64,000 bases of DNA from Natrinema salinisoli (GTDB lineage Archaea > Halobacteriota > Halobacteria > Halobacteriales > Natrialbaceae). A model generated the notes under the pieces. It was not told where the DNA came from, searched no databases, and was given only the letters and a program-made list of their open reading frames with translations. The translations under genes were made by a program, and so were the position numbers. The DNA lies in NCBI RefSeq assembly GCF_020405205.1, contig NZ_CP084469.1, forward strand, positions 3,596,001 to 3,660,000, read 5' to 3'. Shown here piece after piece: positions 48,753-51,726 of the stretch. Every line of letters starts with the position of its first letter. Within the stretch, counting starts at the first letter, position 1.

Positions 48753-49952
48753 CTATTTCTCGATGATACTCTCCTCGACGGGCTCGCCGAAGTGGCGCGC
48801 CGTGTCCTCGGCGTACAACAGAATCTCGTCGCCGGCTTCGACGTCCGTCACCGCTTTGCGACCCTCCGCGGTGGGGACCTTGATCGTCTCGGCGTTCTGG
48901 AGCAGGGTCTCGACGCGGTCGCCGCTCTCGGTCTCGAGCGCGAGCCGGAACATCGGTCGCTGTTCGATCTTGACCCGGCCGACGATGGCCTCCCGCGTGT
49001 TGCCGTCGAGGTCGACGACCTGGACCTCGTCGCCGCTCTGGAGTTCGGAGAGGTACTTCGTGCCGCCGTCGGGCGTCCGGACGTAGGCGTGGACCGCGCC
49101 GGCGTTGACGCGGAAGGGACGGGAGGCGACGTACGGCGATTCGGCGGTCTCGCCGTGGACGAAGACCAGCCCGCGGCTCATCGATCCGACGAGCATCCCC
49201 TCGTCGTGCTCGAGCAGATTCCCGGTGTCGACGCAGACCCGATCCGCGCTGCCCGCTCGTTCGATGTCGAGCACTTCGGCGTACTCGAGATCGAGAGTCT
49301 CGCGTTCGGCCTCGTCGCGGACCTCGACGGTCTCGCGGATCTCGTCGGGGTCGTCCGAGTCGAGCAGGACGGCGTCGGACCCGATCTCGAGGGTCTCGAA
49401 CGCCGTTTTGGCCTCCTCGGCGCTGGTGACGCCCGCGACGAGGTCCGTCTCCTCGCCGATGCGGGCGATCAGGTTCTCGAGGGGGATGATCGTCCAGTCC
49501 TCGCCGACGACGATCGTGTGGTCTGCCTCCTCGGCGGCGGTTTCGGCGAAGCGCTCGTACTCCTTGCCGAGGATGCGGACGTACGCGCCGCGCTGGAAGT
49601 CGCCGTCGCGGCGCAGCGTCGAGAGGTCTGCCGATCCGGAGAAGTCCTCGGGCAGGTCGATCGTCGCGTCGCCCTCGCCGTTCTTCCCGACGACCACCGC
49701 GTCCGCCCGTGCGGCCGGTTCGCCGTCGTCGCTCTCGGCTTCGGCGTCGTCGATGTCGTCGACGAGGGTCACGTCCCCGTCGGTTCGAAACGCCGCGACG
49801 TTGATATCGCCGAGTTCGCGGACGCGCTCCACGTCTCCCTCGTCGACCAGTACCCAGTCTGCACCCGCCTCGAGCGCGGCGGTGATCCGCGCCCGGCGGT
49901 CGTCCCAGTCACCGACGGTATCGTCGGCTTTTACCCAGACAGCTCGCGTCAT
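48753..49952 (-). CDS. aroB': 3-dehydroquinate synthase II (archaeal type)
   Basis: A 399-residue enzyme that converts ADH (2-amino-3,7-dideoxy-threo-hept-6-ulosonate) to 3-dehydroquinate with oxidative deamination, replacing bacterial AroB. Family segments are the opening TRAVWVKADD, WTIIPLENLIARIG, DLEYAEVLDIERAGSADRVC, DTGNLLEHDEGMLVGSMSRG and SRPFRVNAGAVHAYVR. The ATG at 49952 begins the conserved region. Its partner enzyme, ADH synthase, lies at 54020-54814. An operator-like dyad sits about 200 bases upstream between it and the divergent cyclin-like gene. Confidence 0.92.
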   Translation of the reverse strand: MTRAVWVKADDTVGDWDDRRARITAALEAGADWVLVDEGDVERVRELGDINVAAFRTDGDVTLVDDIDDAEAESDDGEPAARADAVVVGKNGEGDATIDLPEDFSGSADLSTLRRDGDFQRGAYVRILGKEYERFAETAAEEADHTIVVGEDWTIIPLENLIARIGEETDLVAGVTSAEEAKTAFETLEIGSDAVLLDSDDPDEIRETVEVRDEAERETLDLEYAEVLDIERAGSADRVCVDTGNLLEHDEGMLVGSMSRGLVFVHGETAESPYVASRPFRVNAGAVHAYVRTPDGGTKYLSELQSGDEVQVVDLDGNTREAIVGRVKIEQRPMFRLALETESGDRVETLLQNAETIKVPTAEGRKAVTDVEAGDEILLYAEDTARHFGEPVEESIIEK

Positions 49953-50093
49953 GCATCGACCCTCGAAGGGAACGGGCTTGAACGTGGCGAATCGAACAGG
50001 GGCGACGGATCGTCCCTCGCCCGGGATGACGCCCTCCGGTACCGATCGAACCCCACCATCGATCGTGAATCGCTGTGCGATCGATCGCACACC

Positions 50094-50197
50094 GATAGTC
50101 GGTGGCTCTGGGTCGCCTCCTCGCTTCCCGAGGCCGTGCTCGTCGTGACTATCGCTACTATCACGTTAGTTGCGACACTCACGATAGTAATGATAGT
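50094..50197. promoter_or_regulatory. Five GATAGT/ACTATC hexamers, four in a symmetric 50-bp dyad
   Basis: ACTATC occurs at 50148 and 50157, and GATAGT at 50183 and 50192, each pair 9 bases apart, so the whole (50148-50197) is exactly symmetric about 50172.5. A fifth GATAGT lies at 50094. The dyad stands about 50 bases upstream of the ATG at 50249 and just before its AT-rich TATA region (about 50217-50226). A dimeric factor binding twice, or a tetramer, is the likely reader. The gene on the other side is aroB', about 196 bases away. Confidence 0.65.
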
Positions 50198-50248
50198 CGA
50201 AATACTTTCTCAGAAATTGATAATATCTGTTCGATCGATCCTTCGGAT

Positions 50249-50833
50249 ATGGGTCAGCGCCACCTCGAGACGGACGCCGAACTGTCGATCGACTGCGCCG
50301 CCCGCCGGCTCGGGGTGGACCCTGCGGCCGAGGTCGCGCGAGCCGCGTTCGACCACGCGGGCGAGCTGGCGGCCCTCGAGTACGGCCGAACGGCGGCCGT
50401 GCTCGGGTCCCTCCGTCTCGCCGCTCGCCGCACCGACGTCGTCGATCTCGAGCGCGAACACCTCGCGGAAGCCTTCGACGTCGATCCCGACGACGTCGTC
50501 GCGGCCGAGGAACTGCTGACGCGGTACCTGTCGCCGCCCGCGGACGCCGCCGAGATCCGCTCGCTGCGACGGACGCTCATCGCGGCCCGGGAAGTCCTGG
50601 CCGCGGTCGAGCGCGGCCGCGCCGCTGGCCCCGAGCTCCCGGGCTCGCACCTCGCTGACGCCGCGCCCTTCCTGCTCGCTCGCGCGAGCAGCCACCTCGA
50701 CTCTCGCACCGGCCGCGAGTTCCCGGGGCTCGACGCGGCGGCGCTTCGTGCTCACATCGAGCGTCTCGAGGCCGACCTCGAGCACGCTCGACTGGGGACG
50801 AGGCTTTACCTACTGGTCCACGACGCCGACTGA
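50249..50833 (+). CDS. TFB-like protein with a single cyclin repeat
   Basis: A 194-residue protein. Residues ~10-95 align by pattern with the first cyclin repeat of the TFB at 39922: IDCAARRLGVDPAAEVARAA matches IDRMASALGLPTNVRETASV, EYGRTAAVLGSLRLAARRTD matches PGRSIEGVSTACVYAAARQA, and EHLAEAFDVDPDDVVAAEEL matches DEIADVSRVEKNEIARTYRY with nearly identical spacing. There is no zinc ribbon and no second cyclin repeat; the remainder is a helical domain (~100-194). It might modulate promoter recognition or be a divergent relative with another role. Homology is by eye. Start ATG 50249 fits the TATA region. Confidence 0.6.
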   Translation: MGQRHLETDAELSIDCAARRLGVDPAAEVARAAFDHAGELAALEYGRTAAVLGSLRLAARRTDVVDLEREHLAEAFDVDPDDVVAAEELLTRYLSPPADAAEIRSLRRTLIAAREVLAAVERGRAAGPELPGSHLADAAPFLLARASSHLDSRTGREFPGLDAAALRAHIERLEADLEHARLGTRLYLLVHDAD

Positions 50834-50868: not shown

Positions 50869-51726
50869 CTACCGCAGCTCTCCCGCGTCCTCCATGAGCT
50901 TGTGCCGGAACGCACGGTAGGCGTTTTCGCCCCGCTCGGTCAGCTCGACGACGCGCCGGCGGCCGACCGACTCGATCGTGACGTAGCCGTCCTCCGCGAG
51001 GGGCTCGAGGACGTGCGTATCCAGTACTCGAAACGCGCCCTTGTCCTCGCCGGAGCGGTCGTCGGGCGAGCGCCGATCGGCCATGAAGGAGAGCCCGCGG
51101 TCCCGCGCGTACTCGATGAGGTCCTTCTTCTTCGGCGGGGCCGTTCGATCCTCGTGGAACCCCTCCCACGCGCCGGGGTCGGAGAGCAACTCCATGATCG
51201 CGACCTGGTCGCGCGTCGGCGACTCGATCGGGTAGGTCGGCACCTCCTCCATCTCGTCGAGGCCGAACGAAATGGGTTCGGTCGTTCCATCGTGGGCGTA
51301 CTCCGAGGGCTCGACGTAGTAGGCGTGGGCGTCCGTCGAGACGTCCATGCACGCGATCGTCGCCCCGATCGCCGGAATCGTCCCGGCCCCCGAGACGTTG
51401 ACGTACACCTGATCCTCCGCGTGCACGTCGGCGATCGTCGTCACGTCGCCGAGGACGGCGTAGACGTCCGTCAGATCACACTCGCGGATCCGGACCTCCG
51501 GGACGATCGACTCGAGTTCCTCGCGCAACTCATCGTGATACTCGGCCCTCGCCGTCGCGTTCCGCTCGCCGGTTCCACCGTCTTCTCCGTCATTTCTCCC
51601 GTTTCTGCCCGTCCGTTCGTTCTCGAGGAGATAAACCAGATCCGCCCGCTGGGTTCGGATCGGCTCGAGGATCCGATCGAACTCGTAGCCCAGCGGCACG
51701 ACGTGCACTCGCTTGACGACCTCCAT
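50869..51726 (-). CDS. DUF6293 / HFX_2341-type regulator with CARF-like domain
   Basis: A 285-residue protein. The N-terminal ~160 residues are Rossmann-like and resemble CARF sensors: KRVHVVPLGYEFDRILEPIR as the opening, a central EDQVYVNVSGAGTIPAIGAT as the second ligand loop and AYYVEPSEYA as a strand. An acidic linker (~45-65) is inserted. The last ~110 residues form winged helices (DQVAIMELLSDPGAWEG; VLDTHVLEPLAEDGYVTIES; VELTERGENAYRAFRHKLME). This matches the haloarchaeal HFX_2341 family regulators. No cas gene is near, so ligand and targets are open. Confidence 0.78.
   Translation of the reverse strand: MEVVKRVHVVPLGYEFDRILEPIRTQRADLVYLLENERTGRNGRNDGEDGGTGERNATARAEYHDELREELESIVPEVRIRECDLTDVYAVLGDVTTIADVHAEDQVYVNVSGAGTIPAIGATIACMDVSTDAHAYYVEPSEYAHDGTTEPISFGLDEMEEVPTYPIESPTRDQVAIMELLSDPGAWEGFHEDRTAPPKKKDLIEYARDRGLSFMADRRSPDDRSGEDKGAFRVLDTHVLEPLAEDGYVTIESVGRRRVVELTERGENAYRAFRHKLMEDAGELR

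Follow-up and report, generated by a model that had tools for sequence, protein, structure and literature searches.

Upstream of a gene for a TFB-like protein in Natrinema salinisoli, sequence comparison points to a genuine, strongly conserved operator that the preliminary description had misread as a symmetric dyad. The conserved element consists of 9-bp units repeated in tandem, (GATAGTAAC)n-GATACTTTC, with a 9-bp register that takes in the TATA unit GATAATATC, and we consider it probable that this array is read by the protein of the neighbouring DUF6293 gene, which would control TBP/TFB at the core promoter. The system in the window (the whole stretch of 64,000 nucleotides that was analysed) can be viewed as a variant of the Csa3/HFX_2341 type of regulator, distinguished by an array of 9-bp units phased with the TATA box and by the unusual choice of a TFB-like target. 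A sensor driving a single-cyclin TFB-like protein would be an unusual route to the general transcription machinery, and the array offers a defined DNA element, a regulator clade and targets, testable in a culturable genus. The element was not described in the accessible parts of the literature searched (CARF proteins and haloarchaea, direct repeats, TFB-like proteins in Natrinema, C-rich haloarchaeal sRNA); nor did this literature yield an operator for a DUF6293 regulator or a counterpart of the 9-bp register between operator and TATA unit.

A direct 9-bp array in register with the core promoter

The preliminary description had reported four hexamers in an exact dyad (ACTATC-N3-ACTATC, N20, GATAGT-N3-GATAGT) together with a fifth, and all are present at matching positions, with GATAGT at 50094, 50183 and 50192 and ACTATC at 50148 and 50157. 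Its view that they are not due to chance also holds, as five hexamers (either strand) fall within the 296-bp intergenic region against 0.18 expected, and none of 5000 dinucleotide shuffles of that region reached five or produced the N3 hexamer pair; a chance origin was therefore rejected. For the window as a whole, the GATAGT count shows no enrichment (15 seen against 11.75 expected). Genome-wide, the exact GATAGT-N3-GATAGT occurs three times in 4.70 Mb, against none for the reversed control pattern; two of the three form this dyad and the third lies on a small contig (C3) within an apparent coding stretch, as judged by eye.

Comparison of orthologous promoters gave a divided answer on conservation, since the 9-bp array keeps its spacing to the TATA unit and start codon in 70/70 and the dyad occurs in only 2/70. 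The symmetric arrangement thus finds no support as a functional unit, and what is conserved instead is the direct 9-bp array leading up to the TATA box. Only the window and its closest relative (L005) carry the exact four-hexamer dyad, and the exact direct pair GATAGT-N3-GATAGT is present in 30 of the 70 promoters. From this distribution, the inverted pair, which does not share the register of the core array, appears to be a recent, lineage-specific addition; the hexamer at 50094 is absent from L005. Coordinates of these features are collected in Table 1.

Table 1. Positions of the operator, core promoter and flanking genes in the window
Feature	Position	Strand	Basis
aroB' (3-dehydroquinate synthase II), divergent neighbour, start corrected	48753..49952	-	NCBIfam model; aroB' scan
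Lone fifth GATAGT hexamer	50094..50099	+	Window letters; missing from nearest relative
Extra inverted hexamer pair (GATAGT-N3-GATAGT on -)	50148..50162	-	Out of register with core; window and L005, 2/70
Core operator array, units -3 to 0 (GACACTCAC, GATAGTAAT, GATAGTCGA, AATACTTTC)	50174..50209	+	Register table; 69-70 promoters
Unit 1 (TCAGAAATT), conserved spacer at the presumed BRE place	50210..50218	+	Conserved as TCAGAAGTT; BRE assigned by position
Putative TATA unit (GATAATATC), 30 nt before start codon	50219..50227	+	Array register; TATA assigned by position
TFB-like gene, 194 aa, one cyclin repeat and C-terminal helices	50249..50833	+	Homologues, model, fold match
DUF6293 gene (HFX_2341/Csa3-like), CARF-like and winged helix, candidate reader	50869..51726	-	Pfam, co-occurrence, tree, fold

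The promoter set comprised 70 homologues, with start codons assigned by a rule giving preference to an ATG that is in frame and preceded by a TATA-like element, and set by hand in five cases (L018, L026, L033, L055 and L059). The TATA unit begins 30 nt 5' of the TFB-like start codon in all 70, a figure partly shaped by the method because the start-codon rule favours a TATA-like element upstream. Fixed spacing of the array to the TATA unit and start codon, found throughout the set, supports the earlier proposal of a multi-site operator before the TFB-like gene. In the register-aligned consensus, units -4 to -1 read GATAGTAAC, unit 0 GATACTTTC, unit 1 TCAGAAGTT and unit 2 GATAATATC. The unit table covers 69 of the 70 promoters (L065 fell below the score cut), and unit 0 is preceded by two to six consecutive GATAGT-like units in 65/69. 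Unit starts in the window fall at 50174, 50183, 50192 and 50201, with the TATA unit beginning at 50219, so that the core array spans -75 to -40 relative to the start codon. Four more homologues (G030, G032, G097 and G098) were read by eye only, one of which (G032) has no TATA unit at the usual place.

Self-identity at lag 9 between -115 and -36 was 0.465 compared to 0.251 +/- 0.006 in shuffled sequences (70 promoters), with values of 0.434 and 0.391 at lags 18 and 27, and comparable periodicity was not found at -200 to -120 of the same promoters (0.294). The 9-bp unit is near-palindromic, GATA-S-TATC, with A at 0.46 and T at 0.24 at position 8 (244 units), and for this reason hexamers show up in both orientations. 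Allowing up to three mismatches, the array pattern recovers 67 of the 74 TFB-like promoters. A regulon in the genome of the window was not found with GATAGTN3GATAGTN3GATACT (up to three mismatches), which gave four matches against two for the reversed control; two of the four are this site and two lie, by eye, within apparent coding sequence. A looser pair pattern matched 62 times against 99 in the control and is therefore uninformative on a regulon.

The probable target encodes a single-cyclin TFB-like protein

The earlier label of a single-cyclin TFB-like protein was borne out by fold comparison, in which the best match was Pyrococcus TFB (1ais_B; Z 11.9, rmsd 2.0, 85 residues) with cyclins and TFIIBs ranking close behind. 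The model (pLDDT 80) contains a single five-helix cyclin repeat (residues 11-97) and separate helices. Foldseek alone gave no match with E < 0.001, Pfam gave no match for the window protein and no TFIIB match in 29 family members, and a sequence search of solved structures with either this or the DUF6293 protein returned nothing usable. The family profile also picks up ordinary TFBs in genus g72, at their first cyclin repeat (E to 6e-7). Archaeal TFBs and the window protein thus have the cyclin repeat fold in common; however, the latter has one repeat in 194 aa, and no zinc ribbon, B-finger or second cyclin repeat was found in it by Pfam or in the model, and we therefore call it TFB-like rather than a TFB.

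Homologues occur in 74 of 125 Natrialbaceae genomes. The nearest named relative is Natrinema salsiterrestre, also of the Natrialbaceae, with 94% identity in the TFB-like protein. In Natrinema hispanicum CDM_6 (L018/L082), L018 has ACG at the usual TFB-like start, and elsewhere matches to the gene are split in two (G066), interrupted by an internal TGA (G104) or reduced to a remnant (G079); from these cases the gene seems easily lost.

A CARF-like DUF6293 regulator accompanies the TFB-like gene

The DUF6293 gene and the TFB-like gene lie tail to tail; the neighbours seen around the locus are aroB' and the TFB-like gene. Its product matches PF19810 (HFX_2341_N) with 143 bits (cut-off 30) and PF22665 (DUF6293_C winged helix) with 114 bits (cut-off 27). 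In a weak model (pLDDT 59), the best Foldseek matches of the N-terminal domain are the CARF nucleases Can2 and Csm6 (best E 9e-4), and the C-terminal domain resembles MarR/PadR-type winged helices. Given the CARF-like fold, the model suggests that the regulator is likely to respond to a ligand. Of the cA4-binding motifs 1 and 2 printed for Csa3 in the available text of PMC8844856, the motif 1 Gly is present (G13, invariant in A3) and the motif 2 Arg was not seen near S112-G121, both judged by eye, and cA4 itself is therefore doubtful as the ligand.

Presence of the two genes is almost perfectly matched. At a threshold of at least 298 bits to the window protein, a DUF6293 orthologue was found in 75/125 genomes, comprising 74/74 with a TFB-like gene and 1/51 without, and this last genome (G079) carries a broken one. 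Six genera (g1, g10, g12, g13, g23 and g24) include some species with both genes and others with neither, all without discord, and the single discord, in genus g16, is G079. The genes are adjacent in 68/74 genomes, so co-loss may be one deletion. In the remainder they lie at least 250 kb apart on one contig (G111, G112, G114 and G117) or on different contigs (G097 and G116).

A tree of 75 proteins places the regulators found with arrays (three groups of 21, 10 and 16 rows) in a single clade (support 100/99), separate from class B and from a universal paralogue. Ten loci (L158, L159, L224, L255, L335, L341, L350, L352, L353 and L354) were left out of this tree, and the regulators of families f4 and f7 are therefore unplaced; six of the ten (L158, L341, L350, L352, L353 and L354) were assigned to DUF6293 by Pfam only. 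Counting against this regulator as the reader, the promoter of the window DUF6293 gene itself carries no array, and the same applies to the promoters of unlinked DUF6293 regulators in g24 (absent in 5/5).

The array at other genes

DUF6293 genes of a second class, scoring 150-200 bits against the window protein, occur in genomes in which a TFB-like gene was not detected. Here the array covers the presumed TATA position of the DUF6293 gene itself, with the start codon a few bases off, and extends towards a divergent ArsR-like winged-helix gene. A search with the ArsR-like protein returned eight loci, seven of which have a clear array (G009, G010, G018, G019, G022, G095 and G096), the weakest being G084; G021 has a clear array as well. 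More distant ArsR-like relatives have none. Genomes without a TFB-like gene account for most finds of the array-bearing ArsR-like subfamily, G083 being the exception. Two genomes, G079 and G083, also have an array at a subfamily member located away from the regulator; in G079 the array of the broken TFB-like gene is nearly gone, while the regulator is intact and the array is kept at the ArsR-like gene. Members of the subfamily (about 110 aa) with 9-bp arrays in their promoters were seen at L165-L173, L175, L149 and L151.

Within the Natrialbaceae, the array pattern gave 95 matches, 16 of them away from TFB-like genes; these include ArsR-like, lipoprotein and decayed cases together with several that resemble chance or coding sequence. 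Two of the arrays precede lipoprotein-like genes, at L088 (G007) and L152 (G097); the genes resemble each other by eye and are possible further targets. Outside the family, the order-wide search was examined at 30 loci among the matches listed, 22 of which have a DUF6293 gene in the locus. The gene is near the array in 21 of these 22 listed loci, the array lying on its 3' side; in L352 the two are about 0.95 kb apart. Five of the 22 were first spotted by a short C-terminal signature and then confirmed by Pfam. The distance from array to TATA-like element is a multiple of 9 in 20/22 of these loci, again among the matches listed. In family f7, the full locus aroB' - array - TFB-like - DUF6293 recurs (L158).

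At the outside-family loci (L326-L331, L334-L342, L344-L346, L350 and L352-L354), no long open frame is common to the regions 3' of the arrays (22 loci, among the matches listed). In 18/22 of these listed loci no ATG frame longer than 11 codons closes within 340 nt; one of the 18 (L339) is shortened by a contig end, and the other four loci have frames of 32, 69, 75 and 102 codons. The downstream region is CU-rich, with 81 CCTCC against 17 GGAGG and 34 GCCCTCC against 3.8 in shuffles (21 loci of sufficient length among the matches listed). In ten of the listed loci, a conserved GTGGAGG hairpin opens the region about 33 nt after the TATA-like element. Rfam returned nothing at the gathering threshold for 18 outside-family array loci. 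We read the region, which has anti-Shine-Dalgarno-like motifs, as a putative non-coding RNA, which would be a third output of the array.

Which protein reads the array

The candidate readers compared were the DUF6293, TFB-like and ArsR-like proteins. Of these, only the DUF6293 protein is seen with the array in all three contexts (TFB-like, ArsR-like and outside-family), and on this ground we name it as the probable reader. Another reader, either the ArsR-like protein or a further factor with the DUF6293 gene merely a neighbour, appears unlikely. Promoters of the ArsR-like subfamily do carry the array, an arrangement common among repressors that control their own genes, and two arrays precede lipoprotein genes; however, that subfamily is largely restricted to genomes that lack the TFB-like gene, and neither of the other two proteins compared follows the array across contexts.

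Autoregulation, with the TFB-like protein and TBP binding TATA-like units of its own promoter, would fit the placement of the array before the TFB-like gene, the likeness of its units to the TATA unit in the same register, and the TFB-type cyclin repeat of the product. We nevertheless regard it as improbable, because arrays stand beside DUF6293 genes in genomes without a detected TFB-like gene and one persists at the ArsR-like gene of G079, where the TFB-like gene is broken.

The divergent aroB' gene

The site had been placed between aroB' and the TFB-like gene, and an intergenic position was confirmed, although the start of the aroB' reading frame has to be moved from 50090 to 49952 because the NCBIfam model begins at residue 47; the region from the corrected start to the TFB-like start at 50249 is 296 bp. 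A symmetric operator common to both genes would agree with the exact dyad of the window and its nearest relative and with the divergent aroB' start found within 520 bp in 63/70 promoters, but we hold it to be highly improbable in view of the rarity of the dyad, the fixed register of the array with the TFB-like core promoter, the distance of more than 200 bp between its near edge and the aroB' start, and the 7/70 promoters that retain the array with no aroB' start detected within 520 bp. The suggested coordination of aroB' thus finds no support, and this gene is probably not a target of the array. In G068, the TFB-like gene is gone, aroB' is kept and only a decayed array remains. Directly upstream of aroB', at 49953-49995 of the window, lies a block resembling CGAAGGGAACCGGCTTGAACGTGGCG that recurs before aroB' in many relatives; it has no obvious TATA box and could serve aroB' as core promoter or leader.

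Comparison with known regulators and a proposed mechanism

Tandem short near-palindromic units bound cooperatively are familiar from the met-box arrays of MetJ, a ribbon-helix-helix protein that recognises 8-bp boxes. The window array likewise consists of tandem near-palindromic units, a comparison that concerns only the way of working.

A close parallel, in the accessible text of PMC4333418, is Csa3a of Sulfolobus islandicus, which activates the csa1 promoter and whose footprint there covers -81 to -42 relative to the start codon, next to BRE and TATA on their upstream side. This span nearly matches that of the array in the window (-75 to -40). As described there, Csa3a is a CARF-type regulator with a MarR-like winged helix, encoded on the opposite strand beside its target, features that the DUF6293 protein, with its CARF-like domain and winged helix, appears to share. 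The Csa3a site is, however, one imperfect palindrome, whereas the 9-bp units of the window are direct repeats kept in phase with the TATA unit, and its targets are spacer-acquisition genes (csa1/cas1 operators) rather than a TFB-like gene (PMC4333418). An imperfect inverted repeat of the Csa3a type does not describe the array, in which the inverted pair is found in 2/70 promoters, although single units are near-palindromic.

HFX_2341 (Crr) of Haloferax mediterranei belongs to the same Pfam family by name (PF19810, HFX_2341-like; PF22665, DUF6293_C). It is reported as a repressor in the available text of PMC11434293, which names the DNA regions bound as future work, and it differs from the window system in having no defined sites there. 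Judged by its high conservation rather than by a place in the tree, HFX_2341 probably belongs to the universal paralogue and would fall outside the array clade. MM_0565 of Methanosarcina mazei similarly combines CARF and winged-helix domains, forms a homodimer and binds its own promoter, but in the accessible part of PMC7465815 no distinct binding motif is identified and a TFB-like partner is not mentioned.

Returning to DUF6293 as the reader, comparison suggests that its dimers would sit side by side on the 9-bp units and would thereby govern whether TBP/TFB is recruited to, or can reach, the core promoter next to them. By analogy, a small ligand on the CARF-like domain could gate this action, and the TFB-like product might then, more speculatively, alter promoter use as an accessory factor. 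Whether binding would activate or repress the TFB-like gene is close to evenly balanced: following Csa3a, activation is slightly favoured because the array stops short of the BRE, and repression would be nearly as plausible since the TATA unit resembles the array units and the second-class array covers the TATA position of the regulator gene.

More broadly, one CARF-like clade might read 9-bp TATA-phased arrays that have been rewired to three outputs, with a nucleotide signal remodelling transcription or translation, a possibility to which we give a modest minority of our belief. Were it true, the switch would act through a TFB-like mimic that changes promoter choice, through an ArsR-like regulator, or through the CU-rich RNA, whose repeated CCUCC could mask ribosome-binding sites, for example during infection.

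Repeats at other DUF6293 promoters

Outside the array clade, promoters of the universal paralogue showed no clear lag-9 excess (0.303 compared to 0.271 +/- 0.017, 10 promoters). Class B DUF6293 promoters showed an excess with other unit sequences (0.337 compared to 0.253 +/- 0.012), which is overstated because the 20 promoters include close relatives. Four of the class B promoters (L257, L262, L264 and L266) contain short 9-bp repeats of another sequence, GGTAACGAx, and judging from these, 9-bp promoter repeats may be a habit of the entire DUF6293 regulator family.
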